A DNA stretch of 64,000 bases, from the NCBI RefSeq assembly GCF_003688895.1, contig NZ_REFV01000001.1, positions 413,503-477,502 of the forward strand, read 5' to 3'. Position 1 is the first letter of the stretch, and each line of letters starts with the position of its first letter. Made by a program: the position numbers and the translations under genes. Under the pieces are notes generated by a model. The model had not been told where the DNA came from and searched no databases. It was given only the letters and a program-made list of their open reading frames with translations. The DNA is from Dokdonia sinensis (lineage in GTDB: Bacteria > Bacteroidota > Bacteroidia > Flavobacteriales > Flavobacteriaceae). Positions 2,449 to 64,000 of the stretch are shown piece after piece.

Positions 2449-2468
2449 TACGCTTTCGCGAAAGCGTA
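2449..2468. repeat. GCTTTCGCGAAAGC palindrome, intergenic
   Basis: A 20-bp perfect palindrome (core GCTTTCGCGAAAGC with TAC/GTA outer arms) in the divergent gap between the MCE permease and the HMA gene, 24 bp before the HMA start codon. Confidence 0.95.
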
Positions 2469-2492
2469 CTTTAAAACCTTAAATACTATACT

Positions 2493-2759
2493 ATGAGAAT
2501 TACACTCTTTATACAGAACTTAAAATGTAGTGGTTGTGGAAAAACAATAGTCAGCGCATTGAAGACCGTACCCAAAATAGAAAGCACTTCAGTTTCTACA
2601 GAAAACAATTCTGTGAGTTTTAATTATGAAGAGGCAAGTGACTTAAACCTTGCTGAAGAAACACTTTCCAGATTAGGCTATCCCGTTGATGGAACCTCTA
2701 ATACGTTGCTAAAGAAGGCCACTTCTTTTGTGAGTTGCGCCATCGGACGGATGAAGTGA
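2493..2759 (+). CDS. small heavy-metal-associated (HMA) domain protein
   Basis: An 88-residue protein that opens with an HMA-type beta strand and the motif CSGCG, with C12 and C15 placed as metal ligands. Alternating strand and helix pattern fits one ferredoxin-like HMA fold over about residues 1-66, followed by a short basic tail. Such proteins bind Cu(I) or other soft metals and pass them to P-type ATPases, but no ATPase gene is adjacent. It is the only plus-strand gene in this part of the window and stops 2 bp before the convergent TauE/SafE gene. Role is inferred from fold and CxxC only. Confidence 0.75.
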   Translation: MRITLFIQNLKCSGCGKTIVSALKTVPKIESTSVSTENNSVSFNYEEASDLNLAEETLSRLGYPVDGTSNTLLKKATSFVSCAIGRMK

Positions 2760-2761
2760 TA

Positions 2762-3499
2762 TTAAAGTTTTACATATTCTGCTACGACACTTGCAATACC
2801 TATGAGTAGTATAAGCACTAGTACAAAAGTTCTGAATTGCTCTTGAGAAAATCGATTTAGAATTTGCTTGCCTATCCACGTGCCTAAAATGGCAACGACC
2901 ACCAAGAAAACGGCAATATATAAATGTTCTGCTTTCATATAGCCGTTGTAATAATATACTACTGCCCTACTGGCATCTACGCCAAAATCTATGACTGCAG
3001 ATGTAGCTATAAAAGTAGCTTTATCCATCTTAAAAGCTGTCATTGTAATACCCCTTATAGCTCCACCTGTTCCTAACAGACCGGCACTCAATCCTGAAAG
3101 AATTCCACCTGTAATAGCATTTTTATTACTGTCTTTTACGACCAGTTTTTTGAATATCAGAAAGACTAGACTCAAAACAATTAAAAAAACACCAAGAATA
3201 AGTCCGAGCAAAGTAGGGTTAATATGCTTACTTAGAACCGCTCCAATTGAGACAAAAATGACAGCTGGAATTCCTAAATATAAGATGAGCATTTTGTCCA
3301 ATCCTTTTCTGAAGAATGCAATTTTTGTAAGATTACTAGACAAATGGAACACTGCCGTAATACCTAGAACAGTCTGAAAATCAAAATAGAAATTTGCGAC
3401 GGGAACAAAGAATACAGAGGAGCCAAAACCGCCTACAGTACCTAAAATCTCTGCAAGTAATGCTAGAATCAAGAAAACAGGAAGATATCTTGTGAGCAT
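2762..3499 (-). CDS. TauE/SafE-family sulfite exporter-like permease
   Basis: A 245-residue membrane protein with about seven to eight hydrophobic segments. The paired glycine-rich stretches GTVGGFGSSVFF (near residue 20) and GGILSGLSAGLLGTGGAIRG (about 131-150) are the duplicated signature of the TauE/SafE (DUF81) family. Known members export or import sulfite, sulfoacetate and related small sulfur or organic anions. Its substrate is unknown here. The universal stress protein gene lies 10 bp upstream on the same strand, so the two are probably co-transcribed. Confidence 0.82.
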   Translation of the reverse strand: MLTRYLPVFLILALLAEILGTVGGFGSSVFFVPVANFYFDFQTVLGITAVFHLSSNLTKIAFFRKGLDKMLILYLGIPAVIFVSIGAVLSKHINPTLLGLILGVFLIVLSLVFLIFKKLVVKDSNKNAITGGILSGLSAGLLGTGGAIRGITMTAFKMDKATFIATSAVIDFGVDASRAVVYYYNGYMKAEHLYIAVFLVVVAILGTWIGKQILNRFSQEQFRTFVLVLILLIGIASVVAEYVKL

Positions 3500-3509
3500 C
3501 TTCCTCTTT

Positions 3510-4358: not shown

Positions 4359-4378
4359 CTGGATTGATTTTATACAGT

Positions 4379-4457: not shown

Positions 4458-5660
4458 TCAAAAATTAACAACACTATCCAGCGCATCATCCACATCATCT
4501 TGCATAAAATTAGATTGATACATAATCGTGGTGGTTACTGATGAATGACGATAGAGCTTTTGTAGCATCTGGATAGGAATCTTGTTCCCCGAAATATTCC
4601 CGAATGTATGTCTGGCAATGTGCATACTTAATTTCTTCTCGATTCCTACCTTATCAGCAATGAGACTCAAACGTCTATTAAAATTTCTAGTTACAGTTTT
4701 AATTCTCGTACGCAATTGTTTTGGGTCGTCTGGATTAACCATACTCAATTCTTGAAAAACAAAATTACTTTGACTTTTTCTTTTGTAGGAGTTAAGAATA
4801 GGCTTTACTTTCTGTGGGATTTTCAAAGAAACAAGCTTCTGATTTTTGCCCATCCTATAACGCAACCGGTTATCTATAAAGTCGGACCATTTTAGTTTGA
4901 GTAAGTCACCAACTCTAATACCAGCAAAATAAAAACTTACGAGCCACACATTAAGAGCGTGTCTTTGGGCAGGAGAAATATCTTCTACAGATTCCAGAAG
5001 TTGCACTTCGTCAATGGACAATCCAATTTTTTGAGATTCTAAAATTTTTATGGTGTAACCTCCTCTCCCAAAAGGATAAAAATTATGCTCCGCCCACTTC
5101 TCTCCTATCGCAATATTATATATTGTCCTAATGGATATCATATAATTGACAACAGTTCTATGTGCTAGCTTGATATCGTTTTTAAGATATGCTTCAAATC
5201 TTTTAAGCAAGTCAACCGTGATTTCATTAAAATGTAACTTATCGGCTTTCGCGAAAGCTTTAAACCTATTCATCCGTTGTTTTACAACATCAGCTTGGTG
5301 GAACTGGCCTCTCTCTTTTATTCTCTCTATTTGAATCTCTACGGCGCTAAAGAAATCGAATCGCTCATTTCTTATAATACTCGTTTTTATTGACTTTACA
5401 GATTGATATTTGCTTTCGGATTCAGCAGTTAAAAGTCTTTTGTTCGCTTCAGTAAGTTTTGATAAAATTAGTTGATTTATAAATATAGCATCTGGATGTG
5501 ATTTTCTGACTAGACCATTTCGCTCATCCCACTGACGCTTTTCGATATACTGTCCAATGTATATATATGATGTTTTTCTATCTTTTGTCATCCGTACCGC
5601 AATAGGGTACAACAAACGTGAGTTGGGTTTGTTCCGTAATACTGCCTGAATAGTTGCCAT
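4458..5660 (-). CDS. tyrosine-type site-specific integrase
   Basis: A 400-residue tyrosine recombinase of the Bacteroidetes integrase group. An N-terminal arm-type DNA-binding domain (about 1-85) is followed by a SAM-like core-binding domain (about 100-190) and the catalytic domain (about 210-390). The catalytic set is visible: R249 (GIRVGD), H347 and R350 (HIAR), H372 and the nucleophile Y381 (TTIMYQ), so the enzyme looks intact. The peptide AFAKA at 135-139 is encoded by a copy of the GCTTTCGCGAAAGC repeat. A tRNA 3' fragment lies about 165 bp upstream of the start, which fits integration into a tRNA gene. No excisionase or mobilization genes are seen next to it. Confidence 0.92.
   Translation of the reverse strand: MATIQAVLRNKPNSRLLYPIAVRMTKDRKTSYIYIGQYIEKRQWDERNGLVRKSHPDAIFINQLILSKLTEANKRLLTAESESKYQSVKSIKTSIIRNERFDFFSAVEIQIERIKERGQFHQADVVKQRMNRFKAFAKADKLHFNEITVDLLKRFEAYLKNDIKLAHRTVVNYMISIRTIYNIAIGEKWAEHNFYPFGRGGYTIKILESQKIGLSIDEVQLLESVEDISPAQRHALNVWLVSFYFAGIRVGDLLKLKWSDFIDNRLRYRMGKNQKLVSLKIPQKVKPILNSYKRKSQSNFVFQELSMVNPDDPKQLRTRIKTVTRNFNRRLSLIADKVGIEKKLSMHIARHTFGNISGNKIPIQMLQKLYRHSSVTTTIMYQSNFMQDDVDDALDSVVNF
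5245..5258. repeat. GCTTTCGCGAAAGC palindrome inside integrase gene
   Basis: Perfect 14-bp core, read in frame as AFAKA between the arm and core-binding domains of the integrase. Confidence 0.95.
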
Positions 5661-10149: not shown

Positions 10150-10480
10150 AAGTTTTAGTATTCACTTTTTGATGGTTTAAAAGTCCAACTTTATAACGGT
10201 TTTGGGGTATAATATGCGTCAGATAGCGTCTAAAAAACGTAATAAAACCCTACATTAATGGGATATTCTCATTATAACCCACAATATTTACGTTCTTATT
10301 AATAAAAATGAATACTTAAAATGCCATAACAGAAATAGCAAAGGAGTTCTTGACTTTTTACAATTCAGAATATTGATGGGAAATAAGGGTTACTAACTTA
10401 TTGAGTTAAACCGTGATTTTATACTTAATTCGCTTTCGCGAAAGCGGAATTAAATCCAACTTCATCTTAAAATCTAATAA
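10150..10480. other. intergenic stretch with palindrome
   Basis: Upstream region of the Calx-beta gene and downstream region of the beta-helix gene. It holds the palindrome at 10431-10446 and no visible gene or clear terminator hairpin. Confidence 0.5.
10431..10446. repeat. GCTTTCGCGAAAGC palindrome, intergenic
   Basis: A 16-bp perfect palindrome (CGC/GCG arms) about 35 bp past the stop codon of the beta-helix gene. Confidence 0.95.
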
Positions 10481-12359: not shown

Positions 12360-12375
12360 CGCTTTCGCGAAAGCG
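12360..12375. repeat. GCTTTCGCGAAAGC palindrome, intergenic
   Basis: A 16-bp perfect palindrome in the 272-bp gap between the isomerase-like gene and the beta-helix gene. It is 3' of the former and 5' of the latter. Confidence 0.95.
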
Positions 12376-14541: not shown

Positions 14542-15969
14542 TTAACACATTTGATATTCCGGCAACGACATCAGCTGGATGCAATAGGCCTGTGTAGTCG
14601 AGCTTTCTAGATTTTCTAGCAGACGCTCTGTGTCCTTGTCTAAAGGAGCTTGTAAGATATGTTGTTGTAAACGCTTTTTTAAGACGACTTCAGCGTTTCG
14701 CGAAAGCGTAATAGCACCCACTTGAAGCGGATTCACATAATTCTCTTCAAAATTTGACCAGTCTGGCTCGGTCTTTAGAAATCTGCGTTTGGTCTTTTCG
14801 GCTTCGTAGTAGTCTTCTAAGGAATCTTCAAACTCCCCTTTTTCTGAAAATTCGATAACGGCATTCGCCAGTATTGCGCTGGGCAAGTTCATTCTGAACA
14901 TCAAGGTGTTCGAATCTATCCAACTACGATTGCCCTTCCACCCTGCAACATTGAGCGGGTCCAGCAATACTTGCCCCATCATACGTTGCAGGAAGAGTAA
15001 CTGCTTTTTCTTTTGAAATTTGACAGGCACCACATTTTGAATCCCTACCATAAGCTCTACAGGCGACTTAATTTTTGCGCCTAGGTGCTGCGCTTCATAA
15101 AACCAGTCCGACTCAAAAATATGGCGCATAAGGCGTTCGATATCGTAATCTTGATAGAAGAAATCTGTCAATGCTTCTACGCGCCGGCTATTGATTTCTG
15201 GATTTACAAAATAGGCATACACTTTTGTACAGATGTGGCGTGCGCATTGCTTTTGCTTAAGGATAATATCGATAATGTCGTCTCCATCCCAATTTCCGGT
15301 CTCGTCCATAAAGGTCTTGACACCCTCATCGTGCTGACGCACGCGCAATAAAAAATCGCCATTGCGGTCAAAACTCCATCCAGTAAACGCCCTAGCAGAT
15401 TCTTTAATGTCCTGCTCCGTATAATTTCCCACACCCAGGGTAAACAGCTCCATTAACTCACGGGCAAAATTCTCATTGGGCTTTTCCTTTCGGTTCTGCC
15501 TGTTGTTCAGGTATTTGCTCATAGATGGAGCTTTGGCAACGGCTTTTACAAAATCACCAAAATTCCCCAGCGCATGCTCCCGCAACAGGTTGTGATAGGG
15601 CAAAATATGCCAAATCGCATTGTCCCGACACACAAACACATTTGTCCAGAATAAGGTCATTTTCTCACGCAGTACAGATTCTGGTTCTGACATTCTCGAG
15701 AGCCACGCATAATTGAGGTCTTTGACCATTTTACGTCCCTTCTGAGCGAGCTCACGAAACTTCTTGTCCTCCATCATCTTCCTTGCGCGGGGTTGTTTAA
15801 GCACTTCAAAGGCACTCAAATCCATTTCCAGCGGTTTGATGGTCTTTGCTGCTTCAAAAAGTGTATCCACAACTTCCCCTCTCGAAGCATCCTCCAACTT
15901 AGAAAGCGCTTTCGGCGAGATGCCAAAGCCCGCTCGCCAGTACAGATGTTTGATTTCTTGAGGGTTCAT
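14542..15969 (-). CDS. DUF1800 family protein
   Basis: A 475-residue DUF1800 protein with the family landmarks LYWRAGFGISP (8-18), REKMTLFWTNVFVC, YHNLLREHALGNFGDF, NENFARELMELFTLGVGNYTEQD, ARAFTGWSF, KQKQCARHICTKVYAYFVNPE and AGWKGNRSWID. No clear signal peptide is present at this start. DUF1800 and DUF1501 are usually adjacent and are thought to act together, but the role is unknown. It is the first gene of a unit with the DUF1501 and isomerase-like genes. Near the C-terminus a damaged palindrome copy is read as TLSRN. Confidence 0.88.
   Translation of the reverse strand: MNPQEIKHLYWRAGFGISPKALSKLEDASRGEVVDTLFEAAKTIKPLEMDLSAFEVLKQPRARKMMEDKKFRELAQKGRKMVKDLNYAWLSRMSEPESVLREKMTLFWTNVFVCRDNAIWHILPYHNLLREHALGNFGDFVKAVAKAPSMSKYLNNRQNRKEKPNENFARELMELFTLGVGNYTEQDIKESARAFTGWSFDRNGDFLLRVRQHDEGVKTFMDETGNWDGDDIIDIILKQKQCARHICTKVYAYFVNPEINSRRVEALTDFFYQDYDIERLMRHIFESDWFYEAQHLGAKIKSPVELMVGIQNVVPVKFQKKKQLLFLQRMMGQVLLDPLNVAGWKGNRSWIDSNTLMFRMNLPSAILANAVIEFSEKGEFEDSLEDYYEAEKTKRRFLKTEPDWSNFEENYVNPLQVGAITLSRNAEVVLKKRLQQHILQAPLDKDTERLLENLESSTTQAYCIQLMSLPEYQMC
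14693..14708. repeat. variant palindrome copy inside DUF1800 gene
   Basis: GCGTTTCGCGAAAGCG: intact TTTCGCGAAA centre and right arm, left arm altered. Confidence 0.8.
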
Positions 15970-15993: not shown

Positions 15994-16011
15994 ACGCTTT
16001 CGCGAAAGCGT
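15994..16011. repeat. GCTTTCGCGAAAGC palindrome, intergenic
   Basis: An 18-bp perfect palindrome (ACGC/GCGT arms) 25 bp upstream of the DUF1800 start codon. Confidence 0.95.
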
Positions 16012-17559: not shown

Positions 17560-19124
17560 TACTTCTTCTCTTTTAGCCAGAATAGTTGCTTCCAGATTTT
17601 GGTTCCGTGGTTTTCTAGTGCTTTACCTTTAGTGCTCCGACCGCTTAAAATAATGTCGTTGAGGGCGAGAGTCAGTTCTTCTTTCTTTTTCGCATAAGCG
17701 GAATCCTCAAAAAGATTATTGGTTTCTGACGGGTCATCCTTAATATTAAATAAATAGCTTTTTCCCTTTTTAGGATTTAAATCCATTTTCCAATCCCCTT
17801 TACGAATAGAAAATCTTCCCGCAAAATTTGTGTACACCGATGCCTCGCGGTCATAGGTATTTTCACCTTGTAATAAGGGCAAGATGCTGTAACTGTCCAC
17901 AGCTTGATTAAGTTCTGTTTTGGTATTTACAATGTCGGCGCAGGTGGCGTATAAATCTCCAAGGCTTATGGTGGTTGCGTTTGTACTGTTTGGCTTTATC
18001 GTGTTTTTCCATTGCACAATAAATGGCACGGTAAGACCTCCTTGGTGCAAGGTTGCTTTTCGCCCGCGTAAATGTGCGCTGGGTTTGTGGTTGTATTTTT
18101 CCTCAAATTCAATAGGAAAAGAAGCCTTAGAAGCTCCATTATCTGCGGTGAAGATGATAATGGTATTGTCCTCAATTCCCTTTTCCTTAACAGCAGTCAT
18201 AATTTGCCCAACCGTCCAGTCCAATTCTTGGATAAAGTCTCCATAAATCCCAGCTTTACTCGTTCCCTCAAACTCTGGACGCGGGTACACAGGCGTGTGA
18301 GGTGCAGTCAAAGGGATATATAAAAAGAAAGGTTTACTTTGCTTGTAATCCGCAATATATTTTACAGACTTGTTCGTTAAATCTAGCATTACGTCTTCTG
18401 CCTCAAAATCTGGAGCTTTATCCCCTTTTCGCTTGAGCTTCTGACCGCCGACTAAATCCAACTTTCGTCCGCCCGGAAAGTCTTTATCTTTTCCGTCGGG
18501 TTTCATTGTTTCGGTAGGCTCTGTTATCAAATTGTCATTTTCGGCATATACGTAGGGTGGGAAATCCAAAGAAGCATTGATTCCAAAAAAATAATCAAAT
18601 CCGTGATCCGTCGGACCTCCTTGAAAGGGTTTTGTGTAATCTACTTTATCACTTATATCTTGAGCATATTGGTATGGATTTTTAGCATCCATCTCGAGAT
18701 TTTCTTCTGTTTGTAATTGCCAGTCCCATCCCAAGTGCCATTTACCAATCATCGCCGTAGCATACCCATTGCGTTGTAACAATTCTGGAGCAGTATCTTT
18801 CTCATCGGCAATCAAGGATTTTGAATAGCCGTCCAGCACTCTAGCCTTTAACTTTGTGCGCCACGCGTACTCGCCTGTCATAATACTGTATCGCGACGGC
18901 GTACATACCGACGAAGTGGTGTGCGCATCAGTAAATGTCATTCCATTTTTTATGAGCGCGTCTATGTTTGGAGTGCTGACTTTTGCCTCTGGATTGAGAC
19001 CGGACACATCGCCAATTCCCATATCATCGGCAAGGATGTAGACGATGTTGGGGTTTGAGGTTTCTTGCGCTTTCGCGAAAGCGGATATCAACACAAGCGC
19101 TATTATATATAATGTTCTACTCAT
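17559..19124 (-). CDS. S1-type sulfatase (arylsulfatase A-like)
   Basis: A 521-residue sulfatase with a cleavable signal peptide (LYIIALVLISAFAKAQ); the AFAKA at its end is encoded by a palindrome copy at 19068-19083, so the repeat forms part of the signal peptide cleavage region. Active-site features: YILADDMGIGDVSGLN, the motif C74-T-P-S-R, IGKWHLGWDW, TAPHTP and FTADNGASK. The segment EYAWRTKLKARVLDGYSKSLI is typical of the arylsulfatase A-like subgroup with a long internal loop. It overlaps the fucosidase gene by 8 bp upstream and the next sulfatase by 1 bp downstream. Confidence 0.92.
   Translation of the reverse strand: MSRTLYIIALVLISAFAKAQETSNPNIVYILADDMGIGDVSGLNPEAKVSTPNIDALIKNGMTFTDAHTTSSVCTPSRYSIMTGEYAWRTKLKARVLDGYSKSLIADEKDTAPELLQRNGYATAMIGKWHLGWDWQLQTEENLEMDAKNPYQYAQDISDKVDYTKPFQGGPTDHGFDYFFGINASLDFPPYVYAENDNLITEPTETMKPDGKDKDFPGGRKLDLVGGQKLKRKGDKAPDFEAEDVMLDLTNKSVKYIADYKQSKPFFLYIPLTAPHTPVYPRPEFEGTSKAGIYGDFIQELDWTVGQIMTAVKEKGIEDNTIIIFTADNGASKASFPIEFEEKYNHKPSAHLRGRKATLHQGGLTVPFIVQWKNTIKPNSTNATTISLGDLYATCADIVNTKTELNQAVDSYSILPLLQGENTYDREASVYTNFAGRFSIRKGDWKMDLNPKKGKSYLFNIKDDPSETNNLFEDSAYAKKKEELTLALNDIILSGRSTKGKALENHGTKIWKQLFWLKEKK
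17686..17701. repeat. possible decayed palindrome copy
   Basis: TTTTTCGCATAAGCGG keeps the CGC centre and right arm with changes. It lies near the 3' end of the sulfatase gene. Assignment is uncertain. Confidence 0.35.
19068..19083. repeat. GCTTTCGCGAAAGC palindrome in a signal-peptide coding region
   Basis: A 16-bp perfect palindrome encoding SAFAKA at the cleavage end of the sulfatase signal peptide. Confidence 0.95.
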
Positions 19125-20907
19125 AACTATTAAAAGCGGTTATTTGAATGTCATTTGTATGCTCTAAAATGACCAATCTCGTTCCATAAATCGCATCCCC
19201 ATTGAGTTTCACTCGAAGTCCTTCACCTATGATTTTACCTTTGTAAACGGTTTTCCAATTCCCTGCTGCATCTTTTGTATCAATATGGAAGTTGCGCACA
19301 CAATGTGAACGCATATTCTCACTCAACAACAGCGTCTTTAATTTTTTGGGAGTTGTAAAGTATACAGTTAAATTGGGGTTTTTATCCTCTTTTGCCGGCT
19401 CCCACCAAGATTTTAGGTGTATGACTTCACTAAACACATTACCTTTTGCATTATAGATAACTTCTGGTTTGTTTTTTGCTTTCGCAAAAGATGAAGCAGA
19501 TACCTTGAATTCTTTTTTAGCTACTGGAATCGCTTCCCAAGTCTCTATACGCTCAAAAGTCGACGGATCTTCTGCCAAGGTAAGTGTGACAATATTGTCC
19601 AAATTTTTCGCGAAAGCGTTCTTATCAAAATACAACAATAGCTTACCATTCTTGACTTCGTACCGCTTAAAACCTTTGGTAATTCCTTCGGCACTTAAGA
19701 TTTGGGTAGGTAGCTGTGGTAGTTCTATGGTTGCCTCTGCATTGTCTGCCAATTGCTGTAAAACGTGTACATACAGCGTATTTCCTACCTGTGTACTGGC
19801 GCCATAATCACCACCTATATATATGCCACGCCGTGTATTTTTAATCGTGTGGCCATATTTCTTAATCCACTCGCCTACTTTGCTCGCCTCTTCGGCTTCT
19901 TTGGCAACGAATTCGCCTTTGCCGTTTGGGCCCAGATTGAGCAATAAATTCCCACCATTTCCTGCTACTTGAATGAGCATTCCTAAAACTGTTTCATAAG
20001 GTTTAATGGGCCCGTTTGGGCTATACAGCCATTTATCTGTCATTGTCAGGCACGCCTCCCAATACCTATGATGATTAACAGGCCCCAAACTTTGCTCGGG
20101 CGTGTCATAATCGCCTCTGTCCTGCAACGGCCAGCCAAAACCTGTACGAGCATTGCTCACAATACCCGGTTGCCATTCCTTCATTTTTTTAAGCAAATGG
20201 TAGCTGTCCCACTGCCAGTATTTGGTCGCCAGATGATCCCAAAACACGCCGTCTATCTTTCCGTACTGCGTAAATAGTTGCTCTACGTGGGCATTCATAT
20301 ACGGTAAGTAATTCTCGTAATGTTTCTCCCGCAAGTTGTCGGGATGCGTCCAATCAGGTTGCGAGTAATACCAAAAAATCTTTACGCCCGCCTTCTGCGC
20401 AGACTCGGCCAACTCCTTGCAAATGTCCCTCCCGAAAGGCGTGTTCATAATCCCATACTCCGTATTATCAGCATCAAAAAAAACAAAACCATCGTGATGT
20501 TTGGCCGTAAAAACCACATACTCTGCTCCCCAATCTTTTACTTGTTGCATCCAGCGGTCGGCGTCAAAATTCTTGGGGTTAAATTTTTTATAGAGGTTAT
20601 CATACACCTCGGCAGGCACACCTTTAGTTGCTGGTTTTTCCGCTCCAGGGCGTTCACCATCGCGACCCCAACTGAGCACATTGGTCTTTAACAATGCGGG
20701 TCCCCAATGAATAAAAATACCTAGCTTTGCGTCCTTAAACCACTCCATCTCACCCTCTGTGGCGTACAATTCTTTTTGTTGCTCGGCCGTCACGTACATC
20801 GTGCTATCCTTTGCGGGAAACTGCCATTGGTCTTTGTAGGACGTCTTTTTTTGAGCAAACACCGAAAGGGATGCAAACAAGATGATAAGAAGCTGAGTAT
20901 ATCTCAT
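19117..20907 (-). CDS. GH29-type alpha-L-fucosidase
   Basis: A 596-residue exported protein (signal LLIILFASLSVFAQ). The GH29 catalytic barrel spans about 40-370: WFKDAKLGIFIHWGP (57-70), YVVFTAKHHDGFVFFDADNTEYG (130-152), KIFWYYSQPDWTHP and KIDGVFWDH, where D224 is placed as the catalytic nucleophile. A C-terminal beta domain (about 380-596, FKVSASSFAKA...) is likely accessory and may be galactose-binding-like. GH29 enzymes release alpha-linked fucose, so fucose in the target glycan is implied. Two damaged palindrome copies lie in the C-terminal part, read SFAKAK and NAFAKN. It is in a tight unit with sulfatases on both sides. Confidence 0.9.
   Translation of the reverse strand: MRYTQLLIILFASLSVFAQKKTSYKDQWQFPAKDSTMYVTAEQQKELYATEGEMEWFKDAKLGIFIHWGPALLKTNVLSWGRDGERPGAEKPATKGVPAEVYDNLYKKFNPKNFDADRWMQQVKDWGAEYVVFTAKHHDGFVFFDADNTEYGIMNTPFGRDICKELAESAQKAGVKIFWYYSQPDWTHPDNLREKHYENYLPYMNAHVEQLFTQYGKIDGVFWDHLATKYWQWDSYHLLKKMKEWQPGIVSNARTGFGWPLQDRGDYDTPEQSLGPVNHHRYWEACLTMTDKWLYSPNGPIKPYETVLGMLIQVAGNGGNLLLNLGPNGKGEFVAKEAEEASKVGEWIKKYGHTIKNTRRGIYIGGDYGASTQVGNTLYVHVLQQLADNAEATIELPQLPTQILSAEGITKGFKRYEVKNGKLLLYFDKNAFAKNLDNIVTLTLAEDPSTFERIETWEAIPVAKKEFKVSASSFAKAKNKPEVIYNAKGNVFSEVIHLKSWWEPAKEDKNPNLTVYFTTPKKLKTLLLSENMRSHCVRNFHIDTKDAAGNWKTVYKGKIIGEGLRVKLNGDAIYGTRLVILEHTNDIQITAFNSYE
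19478..19490. repeat. decayed palindrome copy inside fucosidase gene
   Basis: GCTTTCGCAAAAG: a G to A change at the second CpG and loss of the final C. Still read as SFAKAK. Confidence 0.6.
19606..19620. repeat. one-armed palindrome copy inside fucosidase gene
   Basis: TTTCGCGAAAGCGTT: intact centre and right arm, left arm replaced by T run. Read as NAFAKN. Confidence 0.7.
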
Positions 20908-22635
20908 CTACAATTGCGTTTTAAAGATCTCGCTTTCGCGAAAACCAATACGTTGCGCCATCGCATATAGATACTGGCCTTTCTTAACTTCCAGAGGCTT
21001 GTGATACACGTGCCAACCGCTATTCAAATCCAACTCATCCATAACAGTATCCGAAATGATATACCCAATAGATGCTCCCTTAGTGGAAGATGAAAGTCTT
21101 ACAACTTCAGCGCTTGCGTTTTCAGATTCGGTGTTGATTTCAATTTCAGCCGTCACCGGTTGTTCAAAATCTGGCCAGATTTGATTAATAAATTGAGCCT
21201 CCGGCATCATCCCATAATCGATATATTCGTCACGAAATTTGAGTAATCTTGACCGAAGTTCCTTTTGAACAGCTGTGTACTTTGGATTATCAATTAAGTT
21301 GATCAGATTGTGAGGATCGTTAACGTAATCGTACAGTTCGGCTTTGGGCTTGTCCGTAAACCATTCCTGCTGTGTTGGGGTTAGGTTACAGCCACTTCGA
21401 CTACGCTCAGCGCAGGTTTCGCGAAAGCGTAATAATTCCTCCATCATCGGTACTTGCTTTCTGTAGCCTACATCTTTATACCACATCTTCTCTGGAAAGT
21501 CGTTCTGAATGTAGAGAAATTGGTCGTTGTACACCGCACGGGAACGATCTGTAAACTCGTCAAAACGGTCTGACGTGCCAAAGGCGTAGTTGCGTTTCTC
21601 GTCATTTTGCACTCCCAAAAATGCCTTTCCTTGAATGTGTTCGGGAATCTCCACTCCAGCCAAACTCAATACGGTAGGCGCCAAATCTACAAAAGAGACA
21701 ATTTGATCACTACGGCCTTTTGTACCGCGCAAATCCTTAACCATAAAGGGTACGTGAAGACCGCTGTCGTAAATTTCTCTTTTCTGGCGGGGCATCGGGC
21801 CACCGTGGTCGCTGTAAAAGAAAATGATGGTGTTATCGTATAAACCGTCATCTTTAAGTTTCTGGAGCAGGTCGCCCACTTCTTTATCTAGTAATTCTAC
21901 ATTGCTGTATAAGCGTGCGAGATCTGTGCGAGAGGTTTCTGTATCTTGAAAGTAAGGTGGCACAGGCACATCATCTGGACTTACGGTAAGTGGCAAATCA
22001 GCATTTTTCCAAATACGGCTCTCGTGGGTTACGCCAAAATTAAATACCGAGAAAAAAGGCTGTCCTTTTTTACGATTACGCCAATGCGCTTTCTTTCCGT
22101 TCTCATCCCAAACGGTTACGGGCGATGCAAACTGGTAATCTGTTTTTTCATTATTTGAGGTGAAGTATCCTTCCGTACGCAAGTATTCTGGAAATGCTTT
22201 TACATAATCAGGAATCACAGAAGCATATTGAATGATGTCATTGCCCTGAACATCTTGCCTTCCCACGTCCTTTTTGTAGGTACGCTTTCCCCAGTTCATC
22301 ACATCCTGCGCCGTACGCATATGCATCGTCCCAATGCTGGTAGGATACATACCCGTAATAATCGCACTTCGCGATGGTCCGCAAACGCCAACTACTGAGA
22401 AAGCCTTATCGTACACCACACTTTCAGAGGCAAGTTTATCTAAAACTGGGGTTTTTGCGGTGTTATCTCCGTAAAAAGAGAGTATCGGACTAATGTCTTC
22501 ACAAACAATCCAGAGAATATTAGGCTGTCCACCATCCGAATCCTGAGCGGAGCCGAAGGATGAAGTTGAGGACTTATTTGAATTACAAGAAATAATCAGA
22601 ACAAACAGACCTATAAGCGAGAGAACATATTTCAT
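20908..22635 (-). CDS. S1-type sulfatase (N-sulfoglucosamine/heparan sulfatase-like), lipoprotein
   Basis: A 575-residue sulfatase with lipoprotein signal (LIGLFVLIISC, Cys 17). Directly after it, FGSAQDS is encoded by a palindromic repeat. The catalytic domain begins NILWIVCEDISPILSFYGD, with C85-G-P-S-R as maturation motif, TGMYPTSIGTMHMRT, and YSDHGG near 270. The subgroup recalls sulfamidase-like family members with an extra C-terminal beta domain (about 480-575), here ending in FRES from another repeat copy. The peptide FRETCAERSRSGCN in the middle comes from two abutting repeats at 21395-21430. The GH10 gene start overlaps its neighbour by 1 bp; this gene ends directly at the fucosidase start. 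Confidence 0.9.
   Translation of the reverse strand: MKYVLSLIGLFVLIISCNSNKSSTSSFGSAQDSDGGQPNILWIVCEDISPILSFYGDNTAKTPVLDKLASESVVYDKAFSVVGVCGPSRSAIITGMYPTSIGTMHMRTAQDVMNWGKRTYKKDVGRQDVQGNDIIQYASVIPDYVKAFPEYLRTEGYFTSNNEKTDYQFASPVTVWDENGKKAHWRNRKKGQPFFSVFNFGVTHESRIWKNADLPLTVSPDDVPVPPYFQDTETSRTDLARLYSNVELLDKEVGDLLQKLKDDGLYDNTIIFFYSDHGGPMPRQKREIYDSGLHVPFMVKDLRGTKGRSDQIVSFVDLAPTVLSLAGVEIPEHIQGKAFLGVQNDEKRNYAFGTSDRFDEFTDRSRAVYNDQFLYIQNDFPEKMWYKDVGYRKQVPMMEELLRFRETCAERSRSGCNLTPTQQEWFTDKPKAELYDYVNDPHNLINLIDNPKYTAVQKELRSRLLKFRDEYIDYGMMPEAQFINQIWPDFEQPVTAEIEINTESENASAEVVRLSSSTKGASIGYIISDTVMDELDLNSGWHVYHKPLEVKKGQYLYAMAQRIGFRESEIFKTQL
20931..20943. repeat. one-armed palindrome copy at the 3' end of a sulfatase gene
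   Basis: CGCTTTCGCGAAA, left arm and centre intact, right arm lost. Read as GFRES seven codons before the sulfatase stop. Confidence 0.8.
21395..21430. repeat. composite repeat: CTTCGACTACGCTCAG-type element abutting a TTTCGCGAAAGCGT half palindrome
   Basis: 21395-21416 is a copy of the CCTGAGCGGAGTCGAAGG-type element in reverse orientation. 21417-21430 is the main palindrome lacking its left arm. Together they add about a dozen residues (RFRETCAERSRSGC) to the sulfatase in frame. Confidence 0.8.
22541..22563. repeat. CCTGAGCGGAGTCGAAGG-type repeat in a sulfatase signal-linker
   Basis: A copy with one change (AGCCGAAGG), read as FGSAQDS immediately after the lipoprotein signal of the sulfatase. 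Confidence 0.75.
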
Positions 22636-43538: not shown

Positions 43539-44197
43539 CTATAATCTATCACGTTAATAGTCTTATTTTAAAATTTACAAATCAAATACTTTTCATCCCA
43601 GTAATCAACGGCACACAAGTATCTTCAGAAATCTACTATGCAATAGTCAACAGCAATCTAAAATAATTTTGACTACTCCGTCTAAAAAGGGTTACTATCT
43701 TGACGTGCTCTATGTAAAAACCTGCATAAAAGAAAGTAAGACAGGGAACTACTCTTACCGCGACATTAGTTTCAAGATTTATGAGCGATATTGAGAGTGT
43801 TCGGAATCTTATAACGGACTTAATGTAACTCGTAAGAGTACGATTACAAAAGTAATTTTGCTTATTCTGCTCATTAATATCAATCCGTGGATGACGCCCT
43901 TTGACTTCCCGTTGGGCTTTTTGCGTTTAAAGCGCTTGGCGCATTTAAATACATGTCTAATATTCAGCGTACAAGGGAGAATAAAAAACTCAGTTCCCTA
44001 AAGCTCATATAGTTATAGAACTTTAGAGTCAAAATCACAAATATTTTGATTTTAAACTGACTAAAAATTTGTCAATTAATTTAGAATATTTATGAAAAAG
44101 GTTCAAGCAGAATATACCCACTTCTGGGTATTTCACATAAAAATGCCATGTGTTTATTTTGAGGTTTTACAAATCGCACCTTAAAATCTCTCTCAAA
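43539..44197. other. intergenic stretch holding the ABC gene fragment
   Basis: Besides the fragment at 43761-43987, no intact gene is visible. The 3' part is AT-rich and must hold the promoter of the giant T9SS protein gene; no perfect TAnnTTTG box was found. Confidence 0.5.
43761..43987 (+). pseudogene. decayed fragment of an ABC exporter gene (copy of part of 49166-50920)
   Basis: From about GCGACATTAGTTTCAAGA to GGGAGAATAAA the bases follow 49535-49770 of the intact ABC transporter gene with many substitutions and small gaps. Shared stretches include CTTATTCTGCTCAT, ATCAATCCGTGGATGACGC, CCCGTTGGGCTTTTTG and TTTAAATACAT. Stops and frameshifts break every frame. Only an internal transmembrane-domain piece remains. 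It lies about 5.7 kb upstream of the intact gene, on the same strand, with the giant repeat gene between them. Confidence 0.8.
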
Positions 44198-49002: not shown

Positions 49003-49020
49003 ACGCTTTCGCGAAAGCGT
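49003..49020. repeat. GCTTTCGCGAAAGC palindrome, intergenic
   Basis: An 18-bp perfect palindrome 9 bp after the stop of the giant protein and 14 bp before its terminator. Confidence 0.95.
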
Positions 49021-50952: not shown

Positions 50953-50974
50953 TTACGCTTTCGCGAAAGCGTAA
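50953..50974. repeat. GCTTTCGCGAAAGC palindrome between convergent genes
   Basis: A 22-bp perfect palindrome (TTACGC/GCGTAA arms), the longest copy in the window, in the 71-bp gap between the ends of two convergent genes. It could act as a bidirectional terminator here, but has no T run. Confidence 0.95.
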
Positions 50975-54810: not shown

Positions 54811-54823
54811 CGCTTTCGCGAAA
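54811..54823. repeat. one-armed palindrome copy, intergenic
   Basis: CGCTTTCGCGAAA with right arm lost, about 44 bp past the stop of the FAD-dependent dehydrogenase gene. Confidence 0.8.
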
Positions 54824-54866
54824 TATACTCTAAACTCGTTTCAGTAGCGTACTCAAGATAACTACC

Positions 54867-56423
54867 CTACCTCTCGTATTTTGCCACAATCTTGTCCACA
54901 CAATTGATACCATCTATCGCCGCCGAAATGATTCCTCCAGCATAACCCGCACCTTCACCACAAGGGTAAAGCCCCTTTATTTCAACGTGCTCGAGCGTTT
55001 CCCAGTCGCGCGGAATAGAAACTGGAGATGAAGTACGACTCTCTGGCGCGTGTATCACGGCATCGTTTGTAAGATATCCTTTCATCTTCCTACCGAAACC
55101 TAGAAAGGCCTTTTTTAGTCGTTTTGAAATCAAATCAGGTAAAACCTTATTTAAGTCTACTGAGACAATTCCTGGTTGATAAGAAGTTTTAGGGAAGTTT
55201 TTAGAAATACGACCGTCTACAAAATCACGCATACGTTGCGCAGGAACGGCCTGCGTTTTTCCCGCCGCTTCCCAACAAGCACGCTCTACAGATTTTTGAA
55301 AGTCCAGACATACGAAAGGGTCGCCTTCCTTAAAATTGGGTAGATCTTCTGGTGTGACACTCACAACAATACCAGAGTTTGCATAGGGATTATCTCGTTT
55401 ACTAGGACTCCAACCGTTAGTAACAACCTCCTCCTGATCCGTCGCGCAAGGTGCAATAATTCCACCAGGACACATACAGAAAGAGTACACACCCAGTCCA
55501 TCTACTTGCTGTACAAGACTGTAGGATGCTGGTGGCAAATACGGGTTATCCCCGTCAGAATGATATTGAATATCATCTATGAGCTCCTGTTGATGCTCGA
55601 TCCGTACTCCTATTGCAAATGGTTTTGCTTCAATCTTAATCCCACGCTCATGCAATAAATAAAAGATATCTCTTGCACTATGACCCGTTGCAAGAATCAC
55701 TTCATCAAAGTCGTGCCAAGCATCATCATTAATCTGAACGGAACTAATCGCTCCATCTGTTACTTTTAAATCGGTCAGTTTACTGTCAAAATGAACCTCG
55801 CCTCCATATTCGATGATTGCCTCGCGCATTGTGGTGATTATCTTAGGCAACTTGTTTGTTCCTATGTGCGGGTGCGCATCTACGAGAATTTCTGGCACTG
55901 CACCAAAATGCACAAACCACTCCAACGCCTTAAGCACATTCCCTCGCTTTTTTGAACGCGTATATAGTTTACCATCGGAATATGTTCCTGCCCCACCTTC
56001 TCCAAAACAGTAATTAGAGTCTGGATTTACAATATGATCTTTATTAATTGCTGCGAGATCCCTTCGTCTTGCTCGCACATCTTTCCCTCGTTCAAAAACA
56101 ATGGGTTTGAGCCCACCTTCAATCGCTCGCAAGGCTGCATATAGTCCCGCTGGCCCAGCCCCGATGATAGCAATGGGATGCCCGTCAGCAACATTTTGAG
56201 GCACAAAAGGCGGGATGTCAGGTCGCTCCTCTCCTACCATCCAAAACTCAATTTGCAAGGAAATCTTAACCGGTGCCTTGCGCGCATCTATACTACGCTT
56301 CCTAATATCCCACTCGCGTACTTCATCTGCGGTTAAGTTCGCTTTCGCGAAAGCTAACTCGGCGATATAATCATCATCTTCTGCCTGATGAGGAAGTACA
56401 TTTATTTGAACGAGTTTGGACAT
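54867..56423 (-). CDS. FAD-dependent dehydrogenase (COG2509-like)
   Basis: A 518-residue flavoprotein. Residues about 1-80 form an N-terminal domain typical of this group (ends ISLQIEFW). The dinucleotide-binding motif IGAGPAGLYAALRAIEGGLKPIVFERG starts near residue 87. The GEGGAGTYSDGKLYTR segment, ATGHSARDIF and the C-terminal GEGAGYAGGIISAAIDGI are hallmarks of this uncharacterised dehydrogenase family. Cys in SFCMCPGG may matter for redox work. AFAKA at about 24-28 is repeat-derived, inside the N-terminal domain. Cytoplasmic; substrate unknown. Confidence 0.87.
   Translation of the reverse strand: MSKLVQINVLPHQAEDDDYIAELAFAKANLTADEVREWDIRKRSIDARKAPVKISLQIEFWMVGEERPDIPPFVPQNVADGHPIAIIGAGPAGLYAALRAIEGGLKPIVFERGKDVRARRRDLAAINKDHIVNPDSNYCFGEGGAGTYSDGKLYTRSKKRGNVLKALEWFVHFGAVPEILVDAHPHIGTNKLPKIITTMREAIIEYGGEVHFDSKLTDLKVTDGAISSVQINDDAWHDFDEVILATGHSARDIFYLLHERGIKIEAKPFAIGVRIEHQQELIDDIQYHSDGDNPYLPPASYSLVQQVDGLGVYSFCMCPGGIIAPCATDQEEVVTNGWSPSKRDNPYANSGIVVSVTPEDLPNFKEGDPFVCLDFQKSVERACWEAAGKTQAVPAQRMRDFVDGRISKNFPKTSYQPGIVSVDLNKVLPDLISKRLKKAFLGFGRKMKGYLTNDAVIHAPESRTSSPVSIPRDWETLEHVEIKGLYPCGEGAGYAGGIISAAIDGINCVDKIVAKYER
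56341..56354. repeat. GCTTTCGCGAAAGC palindrome inside the FAD-dehydrogenase gene
   Basis: Perfect core read as LAFAKANLT near the N-terminus. Confidence 0.95.
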
Positions 56424-58250: not shown

Positions 58251-58406
58251 AAATAATGTAGAAGTTTACTTTTTCAGTTTCTAAGTTCGGATGAATTTCC
58301 CGCAAATATCCTAAAATTTGAGGGTTTAGGAGAATAATTAGAGAAGTAACGTAACTTTTTGACCACTTAGGAGTCTTATGAGACATACAAGAAAAAACCA
58401 ATCGTG

Positions 58407-59816
58407 ATGAAACAACATTTACTTGCTATTACCGCTTTTCTCCTCGGGCTTAGTGCTTACAGTCAAGAAATCACGGGAGACTGGAATGCAATGCTCAAAG
58501 TAATGGGTCAGGAATTACCTCTTGTTTTGCATATTTCTGAGCAAAATGGAACTTACAAAACCACGTTAGATAGCCCAAAGCAAGGTGCAATGGGAATCGA
58601 AGCGAGCGCAACAACCTTTATAAATGACACCTTAAATGTAGAAGTTAAGGCTATAGGAATGACCTATGAAGGTGTTTATCAAGAAAATGGAAATGTCGTA
58701 GGAACCTTTCAACAAGGAGGTATGCAACTGCCTCTAGAACTTACTCGAGAAGCGATTATTTCAGAACCTGTAAATCGTCCTCAAGAGCCCATAAAACCTT
58801 ATCCGTATAAAGAGGAAGAAGTAACTTTTGAAAATACCGAGGCCGGTATTACACTTGCAGGAACGCTCACGATACCTAAATCGATAATGGCGAGCAAGGC
58901 CTATCCTGCGGTTATTCTCATTTCTGGCTCAGGACCTCAAAATCGCGATGAGGAATTGCTGGGTCATAAACCATTTTTAGTTTTATCAGATTATTTGACA
59001 CGACAGGGATTTGCCGTATTGCGGTATGACGACCGAGGAACGGCTCAGAGTACGGGAGATTTTGCCAGTGCCACGAGTGAAGATCTTGCAACAGATGCGC
59101 AGGCGGCGTTTGAGTTTTTGCTTTCGCGAAAGCAAATAAATCCCAATAAAATAGGTTTTGCAGGTCATAGTGAAGGTGGTCTCATTGCCCCTATGGTTGC
59201 AGCCAAAAATAAGGATGTGGCATTCATCGCACTACTAGCAGGCGTAGGACAACCTGGTGCCGAACTTCTGGCAGATCAAAGATACCTTATAGGCAAAGCA
59301 CAGGGAATGTCAGAAGAAACTCTAAAGAAGAATAGAATTGGAGCTGAAAATATTTACAAAATTATCAACGACAATACAGGCGATGACGAAGTAATCATTG
59401 AGAAGGCTACTATTTATCTTAAGAACGCTCTAACCCAAAATCCTGAGCTTGTTCCTCAAGGTATGTCTGTTGATCAGTTGATTGAGCAACAGCTTAACCA
59501 ACTCACTACGCCGTGGTTTCAATACTTTTTAAAAACTGACCCTAGTCCTACTCTTGAAAAAGTACAGTGTCCCGTTCTTGCCATAAACGGAAGTTTAGAC
59601 CTACAAGTGCCTTCACAAAAGAATTTATCCCTTATTGAAGAACACGTAAAAAAAGGGGGCAACGATGATGTTACGACGGTAGAAATTCCTAATTTAAACC
59701 ACCTTTTCCAGACTGCTGAAACGGGAAGTCCTACAGAGTATGGGGCAATTGAGGAGACGTTTTCACCTGTGGCTTTAGAGATTATAGGAAACTGGATTAA
59801 AGAAAAAACCAACTAG
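58407..59816 (+). CDS. alpha/beta hydrolase with N-terminal lipocalin-like/DUF3887-type domain
   Basis: The start is placed at the ATG at 58407 (a GTG lies three bases earlier). The 469-residue exported protein has a signal peptide ([16 protein letters not shown]). The N-terminal beta domain (about 18-120) begins [22 protein letters not shown], and the hydrolase domain (about 135-465) has [11 protein letters not shown], nucleophile Ser in GHSEGG, acid Asp in NGSLDLQVP and His in NLNHLF. Probably an esterase or peptidase in the envelope. It is followed after 5 bp by the permease gene. A palindrome copy gives LLSRKQ between two hydrolase elements. Confidence 0.85.
59117..59136. repeat. GCTTTCGCGAAAGC palindrome inside the hydrolase gene
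   Basis: A 20-bp perfect palindrome with TTT/AAA outer arms, read as LLSRKQI before the nucleophile elbow. Confidence 0.95.
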
Positions 59817-61271: not shown

Positions 61272-61283
61272 TCTCTAAATAGT

Positions 61284-61311
61284 AAAAGCCCGATCTAACG
61301 ACCGGGCTTTT
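61284..61311 (+). terminator. second of two hairpins, terminator
   Basis: AAAAGCCCG and CGGGCTTTT arms around an 10-base loop, A-rich before and T-rich after, so it may serve both strands (the sigma factor gene ends at 61529 on the minus strand). Confidence 0.8.
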
Positions 61312-61528
61312 AACAAAGTTTAGTTGAGAAGCGCTTCAAACTTCATCGATTTATATGGTATAACACTTAAAGCCTTGGAATAATTAAGAAGAAACGCTAT
61401 TGTTTCTAATTTTGGGTTCATATCATTTGCCTTTTTGCCCGGCGTGGGCGTTGAGTAAATTTTTGCCATATAACTGCGAATTTGATTTTGGTTTATATCA
61501 GAAACGCAAAAATGTACCCCGTATTGTA

Positions 61529-62113
61529 TTAATTAGTCAAAATAATATTGTGCTTCTCTATCACTTTTCTCAAATTGATAAGTGCATAGCGCATTCTACC
61601 TAGTGCCGTATTAATACTCACACCCGTACGCTCAGAGATTTCCTTAAAACTCATCTCTTGATACATACGCATATGCAACACCTCTCTTTGATCATCTGGT
61701 AACTCTTCAATAAGGCGACGTACATCATTATGTACCTGATCTTTTACCATTTGCTTTTCTGCATTTAAAGCACCATCTGTCAGTACGGAGAATATTGAAA
61801 ATTCTCCCGCATTATCAAACTTAGGCATACGGTTGTTACGACGGAAATGGTCTATCACAAGGTTATGAGCAATACGCATCACCCAAGGAAGAAATTTACC
61901 TTCCTCATTATACTTACCCTTTTTGAGTGTCTTGATGACTTTTATAAATGTATCTTGAAAAACATCTTCGGCCACATCACGATCATAAACTTTTGAATAT
62001 ATAAAACTATATATACGCTGTTTGTGCCTCTTGATAAGAATAGCTAGTGAATTTTCGTCTCCTTGAATGTAATTACTTACGAGCGTAGCATCGCTTGTTA
62101 ACACGTTTTTCAT
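61529..62113 (-). CDS. ECF-type RNA polymerase sigma factor
   Basis: A 194-residue sigma-70 family protein with region 2 (about 20-90: HKQRIYSFIYSKVYDRDVAEDVFQDTFIKV, LPWVMRIAHNLVIDHFRR) and region 4 (about 130-185: LPDDQREVLHMRMYQEMSFKEISERTGVSINTALGRMRYALINLR). No anti-sigma gene is adjacent. Sigma factors of this type beside uvrA are seen in flavobacteria, which suggests a conserved core neighbourhood. Divergent from uvrA across about 320 bp. Confidence 0.93.
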   Translation of the reverse strand: MKNVLTSDATLVSNYIQGDENSLAILIKRHKQRIYSFIYSKVYDRDVAEDVFQDTFIKVIKTLKKGKYNEEGKFLPWVMRIAHNLVIDHFRRNNRMPKFDNAGEFSIFSVLTDGALNAEKQMVKDQVHNDVRRLIEELPDDQREVLHMRMYQEMSFKEISERTGVSINTALGRMRYALINLRKVIEKHNIILTN

Positions 62114-62437
62114 AATACAACTTTTGTAGGTTTAGAGTGTTTGAGTCACTCAATCAAAATTTCTAAAAGTAGTATTACGCTATAGGCAGTTGCTATTTAT
62201 TGTGTTAATGAATGGTAAATATAAACTAAATGGTGTTAAAAATGCAAATCACTTGTGAAATTTCTTTCTAAATTTCTGAAACCCCTTTGTTTATCGTGAG
62301 CGAGGGAAGTCTTATCTTTACAATTTAATAAACTATCTCGGCGCAAAATACGAGGTATTCACCGAAAATAATATTTCATTTCGAGGTAAGCCCGGTATTT
62401 TCACCCTTGGCTATCGCCCCGCGATTAAAAAAATGCA
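62114..62437. other. divergent intergenic stretch between the sigma factor gene and uvrA
   Basis: AT-rich with no gene. A possible promoter for uvrA lies at 62286-62320. Confidence 0.5.
62286..62320 (+). promoter_or_regulatory. weak promoter candidate for uvrA
   Basis: TTTG at 62286-62289 and TATCTTTA at 62313-62320 resemble the -33 and -7 boxes, with 23 bp between them and one mismatch in the -7 box. The leader would be over 100 bases. Confidence 0.3.
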
Positions 62438-64000
62438 ATGCAAAAAGACCTTTCTACCGTCGATCCTCGACACAATATTATCATAAAGGGTGCCAAACTC
62501 CATAATCTTAAGAATATAGATGTAATTATCCCGCGTAATAAGTTGGTGGTGATTACAGGTCTTTCTGGTTCTGGGAAATCCAGCCTTGCGTTTGATACAT
62601 TATATGCAGAGGGACAGCGCCGTTATGTAGAGAGTCTTTCCTCCTACGCCCGCCAGTTTCTCGGTCGGCTGGACAAACCTAAGGTAGATTATATAAAAGG
62701 TATTGCTCCCGCCATCGCCATCGAGCAAAAGGTGAATAGCACAAACCCACGTAGTACCGTTGGGACGACTACAGAAATTTATGATTACCTCAAACTGCTT
62801 TACGCCCGCATCGGGAGAACCATCTCACCAGTTTCGGGTAACGAGGTAAAGAAAGATACGGTTACGGATGTGGTGGAGTATATTAACACTTTCGCGAAAG
62901 CGGAAAAACTCCTGCTACTAGCTCCCATCCACTTAGAAAAAGGTCGAAAATTAGAAGACAAACTCAAAGCGTTACTCCAACAGGGATATGCCAGAGTCAA
63001 AATAAAAGATGAAGTACTCAGACTAGACGAACTGGATGCCAAAGCCAAAAAAGCCAAAGCAAAAGATGTCCTCCTAGTAGTAGACCGCATCGTCACAAAT
63101 CCAGACGATGAAGACTTCCTTAACCGACTTGCAGATGCCACACAAACTGCATTTTTTGAAGGAAAGGGCGAAATCTTCATCGAAAAAATGAGCGATGGAA
63201 GCCAGCGACAGTTTTCAAACAAATTTGAGCTAGACGGAATGACTTTTCTGGAGCCAAACGTGCATTTATTTTCCTTTAATAACCCGTATGGCGCTTGCCC
63301 CACTTGTGAAGGATATGGTGATGTCATAGGAATAGACGAAGACCTCGTGATTCCTAACACGGGGCTGTCGGTTTATGAAAATTGTATATTTCCGTGGCGC
63401 GGGGATAGTATGAGTCACTATCGCGACCAGCTGGTAAACCGTGCTTATAAATTTGACTTCCCGATTCATAAACCGTGGTTTGAACTTACAGAAGAGCAAA
63501 AACAGCTGGTTTGGGATGGAAATAAAGAATTTGACGGACTGAATAAATTCTTCAAATATTTAGAATCCAAAGCCTATAAAATTCAAAATCGCGTGATGCT
63601 TTCCCGTTATCGTGGGAAAACAAAATGTCAGACTTGTAAAGGAAAACGCCTGCGCCCAGAGGCAACATACGTACAAGTAGGTGGAAAAAACATTGTAGAT
63701 CTTGTCACGCTTCCTTTGGATGAAGTAGCTACTTTTTTTAAAGACCTTAAACTCTCCGAACACGATACTACGATTGCCAAAAGACTATTACAAGAAATCA
63801 ATAGTCGACTGGAATTTCTATCAAAAGTGGGTCTAAACTATCTTACCCTCAACCGTAAATCAAATACCCTTTCTGGAGGAGAATCACAACGTATCAATCT
63901 TGCGACTTCGCTAGGTAGTAGCCTTGTGGGGTCTATGTATATTCTGGATGAACCCAGTATCGGCCTGCATCCCAAGGACACCGAAAAACTTATCGAGGTC
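62438..64000 (+). CDS. uvrA: excinuclease ABC subunit A, partial
   Basis: The frame is open from the ATG at 62438 to the right edge (521 codons seen; the family usually has about 930-950). [20 protein letters not shown] leads into Walker [27 protein letters not shown]. Then come zinc-finger halves CPTCEGYG and CQTCKGK, the signature [13 protein letters not shown] and Walker [12 protein letters not shown] near the edge. UvrA scans DNA for bulky damage and loads UvrB in nucleotide excision repair. An earlier ATG at 62433 is in another frame. A palindrome copy gives NTFAKAEKL in the UvrB-binding region. Confidence 0.97.
62889..62902. repeat. near-perfect palindrome copy inside uvrA
   Basis: CTTTCGCGAAAGCG preceded by CA instead of CG. 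Read as FAKAEK. Confidence 0.85.

Follow-up and report, generated by a model that had tools for sequence, protein, structure and literature searches.

The palindrome in the window and across the genome

The stretch of DNA analysed here, 64,000 nucleotides of contig NZ_REFV01000001.1 (the window), carries 16 exact copies of a 14-bp palindrome, GCTTTCGCGAAAGC, which lie both between genes and within them. It is the most over-represented 14-mer of the window, for which a first-order model predicts 0.0002 copies, the same expectation that a preliminary description of this DNA had given for random bases. All 16 exact copies reported in that description are present, at real sites whose start positions had been misplaced by 0 to 4 bases (2449 for 2452 and 50953 for 50957), and its count of seven further sites with an intact TTTCGCGAAA centre was right, giving 23 sites with this core. 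When up to two mismatches to GCTTTCGCGAAAGC were allowed, the window yielded 26 matches, whereas 100 dinucleotide shuffles yielded 0.18 on average and never more than 2. The longer arms that had been described are also found, since palindromy extends over at least 16 bp in nine of the 16 exact copies and reaches 20 bp in the copy at 2452 and 22 bp in that at 50957. A search of the window for RNA families and tRNAs reported none. Genic and intergenic calls were made throughout from the longest open frame, without a trained gene finder.

The motif is not limited to this locus. The source genome (G000; 3,647,482 bases in 43 contigs) contains 857 exact copies, about one per 4.3 kb, and no copy of the reversed control pattern. 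In 464 kb of this genome, which hold 106 exact copies, the bases adjoining the core favour G, T and A, and the core is often extended towards the 20-bp form TACGCTTTCGCGAAAGCGTA. The sampled genomes were grouped by genus: g1 is the genus of G000 and is probably Dokdonia, g11 may be Nonlabens, an assignment that is weaker, and g225 and g111 are other genus groups of the sample. The motif had been described as strand-symmetric and as matching no known sequence, and this still holds; GCTTTCGCGAAAGC was not found in a full-text literature search, the scope of which excludes most subscription journals, and among related strings only TTTCGCGAAA turned up, in papers titled on other matters.

Composition wings flank the core

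The element is larger than its core, with a wing of about 16 bases placed symmetrically on each side and a total length of about 52 bp. In the wing zone, 11 to 26 bases from the core, the outward strand contains 2-12% G in the 464 kb of G000, compared with 19%, and over 207 g1 copies the same zone contains 2-14% outward G, again compared with 19%. C is normal or raised on this strand, and at about 36-40 bases from the core the effect has disappeared. The wings are present on both sides, in the 36 intergenic and the 70 genic copies, and they are as pronounced in g11 (57 copies) as in g1 and weaker in g225 (15 copies). At most four outward G in 32 wing bases were counted in 79 of 90 copies, compared with 23% of random positions. 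Sites of TTCGCGAA that lack the full TTTCGCGAAA had a wing in none of four cases, and TCGCGA sites outside the core differed little from background, 15 of 45 having four G or fewer. The element has, as uptake sequences do, a core with loosely constrained flanks.

Position preferences within the wings follow a 3-base rhythm in g1, and g11 has a stronger rhythm of about 10 bases. For most base classes, none of 1000 random phasings matched the 3-base phase-locking, but for C in g11 it was equalled or exceeded by 151 and 554 of 1000. Given the short stretch, neither rhythm is decisive, and the 3-base rhythm is suggestive only.

The copies in the window are listed here without strand, with outward G counted over the 32 bases of both wings. 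The intergenic exact copies lie at 2452..2465 (the 20-bp arms; 1/32), 10432..10445 (1/32), 12361..12374 (5/32), 15996..16009 (3/32), 49005..49018 (2/32) and 50957..50970 (the 22-bp palindrome; 0/32). Among the genic copies, that at 5245..5258 falls in an integrase-like gene at 4458-5660 (2/32), that at 37091..37104 in a TonB-dependent receptor gene at 35082-38252 (1/32) and that at 59120..59133 in a peptidase/hydrolase-like gene at 58404-59816 (2/32). Weak wings, with 6/32 each, accompany the copies at 22772..22785, in a GH10-like gene at 22635-24395, and at 56341..56354, in the gene for an FAD-dependent protein at 54867-56423. The other genic copies are at 19069..19082 (3/32), 24403..24416 (5/32), 26317..26330 (4/32), 32277..32290 (2/32) and 41199..41212 (3/32). 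The seven sites with TTTCGCGAAA intact and one arm broken comprise three with one mismatch, at 20932..20945 (5/32), 21415..21428 (6/32) and 62888..62901 (1/32), and four with two mismatches, at 14694..14707 (4/32), 19604..19617 (3/32), 29051..29064 (3/32) and 54812..54825 (2/32).

Two other features of the window were noted. A second family of repeated 14-mers, GCAGATGTGGGTGA and its overlaps, occurs as six copies exactly 240 bp apart (46914-48130); it sits in an FG-GAP repeat gene (44150-48994) and represents ordinary internal protein repeats. The histidyl-tRNA synthetase encoded at 56571-58250 contains a segment of about 100 residues, lying between positions 82 and 183, that is missing from most sampled congeners, and among the 16 g1 genomes with a match it was matched in one piece only in G000, G006 and G014.

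The two halves of the element are independent

The bases of the left and right flanks pair up about as independent draws would, with an excess of at most 0.04 at 14 positions from 8 to 30, no formal test being applied. Among cores with two mismatches, G000 had one compensated palindrome in 33, six g1 stretches had two in 62 and g11 had none in five. Mostly the two changes lie in the same arm, as they do in 24 of the 32 G000 cores without compensation. Furthermore, in 27 one-armed cores the wing was cleaner on the intact side (1.37 compared with 2.44 G of 16). Independent halves, with the wing tied to an intact arm, favour a protein that would read each arm together with its wing, and they disfavour a function that depends on base-paired RNA or on a cruciform.

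This bears directly on the possibility that the copies form hairpins, in RNA or as cruciforms, and act as terminators or regulatory sites. The palindromy itself would suit such a role, as would the higher density between genes, where 107 of 302 copies fall in 9.2% of the bases according to a simple open reading frame (ORF) caller. However, the other 195 copies are genic, covariation between left and right does not exceed chance at the 14 flank positions, and compensated double changes are few. The intergenic copies show no clear preference for convergent (18 compared with 16.1 expected), tandem (66 compared with 61.5) or divergent gaps (23 compared with 29.4), and these near-expected counts leave placement at promoters or terminators unsupported. 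A hairpin or regulatory site is therefore already disfavoured, and we regard it as very improbable.

Conservation, origin and spacing of the copies

Copies of the motif are retained between related genomes far more often than control 14-mers. Between genomes that share about 78% of their nucleotides, 11 of the 18 genic copies that aligned were exact (11 of 13 when the comparison was reversed), compared with 7-8% of controls, and at 86% identity 15 of 17 were exact (15 of 16 in reverse), compared with 21%. The numbers are small for intergenic copies, of which three of five aligned were exact in G016 and likewise in G008, each compared with G009 (controls 12% and 27%), and also for alignments to the distant G000, in which 1 of 3, 2 of 2 and 2 of 4 genic copies from three genomes were exact (controls 2-3%). 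Identity was 95-99% at core bases and 76-87% in the wings, which is the background of each pair. Within the wings, A-to-G substitutions occurred at 54-59% and T-to-G substitutions at 0-48% of expectation.

The genic copies fall across the three frames in numbers of 75, 24 and 36 (n=135), and the peptides AFAKA, RFRES and LSRK recur at them. The copy in AddA that encodes RFRES occupies the same codon positions in all six aligned g1 genomes, and at this position ten other genomes, including g225, carry other residues without a gap, next to a loop of variable length. Six more coding positions likewise show substitution without a gap. All seven sites that could be assessed thus agree, the test requiring at least four aligned orthologues and four further sites having too few to judge. 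Copies at aligned sites therefore arise by substitution and not by insertion. Because the copies of g11 and g225 lie elsewhere in AddA and AddB, the site positions differ between genera.

The preliminary description had allowed for a self-spreading element, and a REP/RAYT-like insertion would account for a sequence that is both repeated and palindromic. Such an element is an extragenic inserted hairpin; here 195 of 302 copies are genic, there is no covariation, and the motif replaces residues in orthologues with no gap within the encoded residues at any of the seven alignable coding positions, which contradicts spreading by insertion. This explanation is likewise already disfavoured and its probability appears negligible.

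The copies are also spaced more evenly than at random. The coefficient of variation (CV) of the gaps was 0.34-0.68 in the first ten stretches analysed, below random in nine of them (p<0.05, uncorrected), and 0.38-0.70 in three of four more stretches considered without simulation, the fourth, from G011, having a CV of 1.09; several of these stretches come from related genomes and are not independent. Of the 89 gaps in 400 kb of G000, only three were shorter than 1.3 kb, compared with 22.6 expected. An over-represented and evenly spaced core, as in uptake sequences, is thus found in 13 of the 14 stretches, G011 being the exception.

The motif is restricted to few genera and also occurs on mobile DNA

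All 18 sampled g1 genomes contain 369-905 copies. Among the other 130 genomes of that sample, one from g11 (G027) contains 578 copies, 11 contain 1-17 and 118 contain none. In 397 Flavobacteriaceae genomes, high counts were found only in g1 (two sampled), g11 (all three, 578-664) and g225 (one genome, 408), while 74 of the rest had 1-19 copies and 317 had none. Across the phylum, 22 of 395 genomes had any match, namely G000, 13 genomes of the same family (1-6 copies) and eight outside it (one each). Outside the high-count genera, the maximum in any sampled genome of the phylum was thus 19 copies. Among the best 80 named histidyl-tRNA synthetase loci, exact copies lay only near those of a Dokdonia metagenome-assembled genome (MAG), with two in 5.7 kb, and a Nonlabens MAG, with one and three one-mismatch copies in 20.6 kb; the named relatives are a sample, and the best 80 loci listed may omit the window's own kin. 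Two genomes of g111, G152 and G362, hold 16 and 19 copies, which is above chance yet too few for a full system; these copies may be a relic, a beginning or the content of islands.

In a tree of AddA, in which g11 and G042 are without the protein, g1 and g225 fall on one side of a branch (100/99), and in a tree of AddB g1, g11 and g225 are weakly grouped (53/88; 56% of bootstrap trees). These groupings make a single origin likely.

In some motif-poor genera, copies are clustered on islands, with 1-8 in stretches of 13-20 kb that were picked for having copies. Among 16 fetched stretches (L311-L326, from G163, G154, G290, G177, G412, G029 and G068), 13 share related DNA, and a pair of motifs 933 bp apart recurs in five genomes (G163, G154, G290, G177 and G236). 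The one stretch annotated, L326 from G068, possibly on a mis-binned contig, carries a resistance cluster of copper/silver type, with genes for efflux, for a heavy-metal ATPase and for a multicopper oxidase. The motif seems to mark DNA that has left the motif clade. Three copies in 14.2 kb occur on a viral contig that has genes for portal, capsid and tape-measure proteins. A search of viral contigs with an 18-mer gave 15 stretches, spread over 12 contigs, and in a scan with the 14-mer most loci were single-copy among the matches listed. Two closely similar Nonlabens phages have no copy in 70.7 kb, and the extended form was not found on named plasmids or phages with a 32-base query, the best matches being 17 bases and single 14-mers being invisible to this query.

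Candidate readers of the element

The preliminary description had named methylation among the possible roles, and a HIP-type motif that signals, or results from, DNA methylation and repair would be expected to take the form of a highly iterated genomic palindrome; in addition, 7 of 22 one-mismatch copies differ by C to T at the inner CpG. However, the cytosine-5 methyltransferase family PF00145 had no match in 10 of 18 g1 genomes (two of the ten being less than 90% complete), and PF01555 scored above the cut-off in 2 of 17 motif genomes. Both families, the two that were searched, are absent from 7 of the 14 motif genomes checked for both (G003, G004, G009, G010, G011, G013 and G014), two of which, G004 and G009, are single-contig assemblies. 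Wings of about 16 bases are furthermore unexpected for a methyltransferase site. A methylation site is accordingly unsupported as far as these families are concerned, and we consider the HIP-type explanation quite unlikely.

A second possibility is that the element organises the chromosome, a dimeric nucleoid protein occupying palindrome and wings every few kilobases to shape the DNA, form loops or load machinery. The palindromy and the modular halves would suit a dimer, and the regular spacing with its shortage of close pairs, as well as the copies on islands and on the phage contig, are consistent with this role. So is the distribution along the chromosome, the mapping of which relative to origin and terminus had been proposed earlier. 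It was carried out in G016, with parS as origin marker and only the forward matches of one extended form, and gave no clear gradient: the counts per quarter were 26, 11, 11 and 22 (Kolmogorov-Smirnov (KS) p 0.16; 70 listed of 80 forward matches, the ten others presumably lying beyond 2.97 Mb). Confinement to the terminus, as for matS, was not seen in this one genome.

On the other hand, no candidate protein for such a role emerged, and ParB is not an obvious reader because 13 of 14 motif genomes tested have a single copy of it (G011 has two) and canonical parS, with at most one mismatch, is still found in all 12 motif genomes examined for it, compared with 8 of 13 motif-free ones. GCTTTCGCGAAAGC is thus probably not the site of the resident ParB. 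Against dismissing ParB, its ParB_N domain has slightly lower scores in the 14 motif genomes, at 108.9-115.4 bits, than the best copies of 28 motif-poor genomes, at 114.4-119.9 bits. Chromosome organisation is a possible but uncertain role.

The element might also be a bidirectional counterpart of Chi, which would switch the AddAB helicase-nuclease and hand 3' ends to RecA. To our knowledge, no known Chi resembles a 14-bp palindrome. In each wing it is the GT-rich strand that enters the palindrome in the 5' to 3' direction, as loading needs, and all 42 genomes tested have the PDDEXK_1 domain (PF12705), in ORFs as long as expected for AddB; the names AddA and AddB are inferred here from ORF length and neighbours. 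The density of one site per about 4.3 kb and the 3-base rhythm of the g1 wings also point this way, as does the statement, in part of a study of RecA, that its monomers leave TGG repeats most slowly (PMC3763553). The same part of that study, however, describes no extra nucleation of RecA on Chi or TG-rich DNA (PMC3763553). Moreover, E. coli Chi, the only Chi tested, is wingless and randomly spaced (CV 1.01; 76 sites in 300 kb), and over positions 13-27 the wings of g11 follow a rhythm of about 10 bases more strongly than the 3-base one. Chi is an asymmetric motif with orientation bias, whereas the core is palindromic and its extended form in G016 has no strand bias, with 80 forward and 83 reverse copies, or 36 and 34 by replichore among the 70 listed. 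We therefore think a Chi-like role unlikely.

A second PF12705 match, of AddA type, was not seen for G027 and G317. In the AddB regions of g11 (G317, G469 and G027; L365, L366 and L368), no gene of AddA length adjoins, unlike in most aligned genera, and the AddB of g11 lies on a long branch of the AddB tree.

A proposed role for the element

The preliminary description mentioned neither the composition wings nor the even spacing nor the confinement to few genera, but its suggestion of a protein site or an uptake signal is still the best reading of the motif. The element found in our samples, winged, evenly spaced, conserved, arisen by substitution, confined to few genera and built of independent halves, would best be explained as a clade-specific double-stranded element kept for coverage, one every few kilobases, and as a symmetric binding site. 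We propose that a symmetric, dimeric and sequence-specific protein reads it, each protomer taking one arm and its wing. The cell, or its recombination machinery acting after uptake, could then favour DNA that bears the mark, and such a preference would lead to a copy being retained every few kilobases, with little gain from a second copy nearby. The lack of copies in the two Nonlabens phages also speaks for such a tag. That the purpose is a self tag resembling an uptake signal is the least certain step, and we advance it tentatively.

Several observations weigh against this proposal. No receptor or binding protein for the element was identified here, single wing bases are not individually conserved, C-to-G substitutions in the wings are not reduced overall, and G011 departs from even spacing. 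The copies on islands and on the phage contig suit a self tag but would equally suit any intracellular role. In addition, the known uptake sequences are not palindromes, according to the relevant part of a study of them (PMC1939737). Since the site is palindromic and they are not, chromosome organisation appears nearly as likely as an uptake tag.

Whether the element represents a new class of genome-wide address, with a winged palindrome serving as the self mark of a dimeric protein, seems to us evenly balanced; it would perhaps be the first system of uptake signals in the Bacteroidota, or else a chromosome organiser with hundreds of regular sites. Genome-wide selected motifs without a known reader are rare, and those that have been explained (Chi, uptake sequences, KOPS and matS) each exposed a basic process. 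Here selection has been strong enough to shape proteins, as in AFAKA, RFRES and LSRK, and the reader should therefore be of importance to the cell. Relatives without the motif are available for comparison with the clade, the motif sequence is exact enough to work with experimentally, and it also marks DNA that seems to have gone from the clade.

Comparison with known systems

The sites of parS and of the Noc and KorB type are palindromes of 14-16 bp, and those of parS and Noc carry TTTC...GAAA. The present element differs from them in having hundreds of copies instead of few and a spacer of 2 bp instead of 4, and canonical parS is still found alongside it. Its density is similar to that of E. 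coli Chi, which occurs about once per 4 kb over the 300 kb sampled, although Chi is a short, randomly spaced motif that is not a palindrome and has no wings; known uptake sequences are denser, at about one per 1-2 kb. HIP1 (GCGATCGC) and the alternate HIPs of cyanobacteria are, according to the portion of the literature consulted, likewise palindromes over-represented genome-wide and clade-restricted (PMC4390886). The likeness to HIP1 drawn in the preliminary description stands insofar as GCTTTCGCGAAAGC is an iterated palindrome, grossly over-represented across the genome. It does not extend further, since this element is 14 bp instead of 6-8, belongs to the Bacteroidota, has composition wings and no GATC, and is without a cognate methyltransferase in the two families tested.

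Within the Flavobacteriaceae, where its authors place it, Riemerella columbina prefers its own DNA, and candidate k-mers are given, none of which is shown as an uptake sequence in the part of that report considered here (PMC7965970). As far as the corresponding part of another paper goes, the uptake sequences of Haemophilus and Neisseria share with this element their many copies, a reported even spacing, a fixed core with loose flanks and a frequent location in genes, and those of H. influenzae are described there as evenly spaced, citing earlier work, with a core and loosely kept T-rich flanks (PMC1939737). A fixed core with loose, strand-polar flanks and even spacing is the combination described for H. 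influenzae, and for this reason we tentatively favour an uptake tag.

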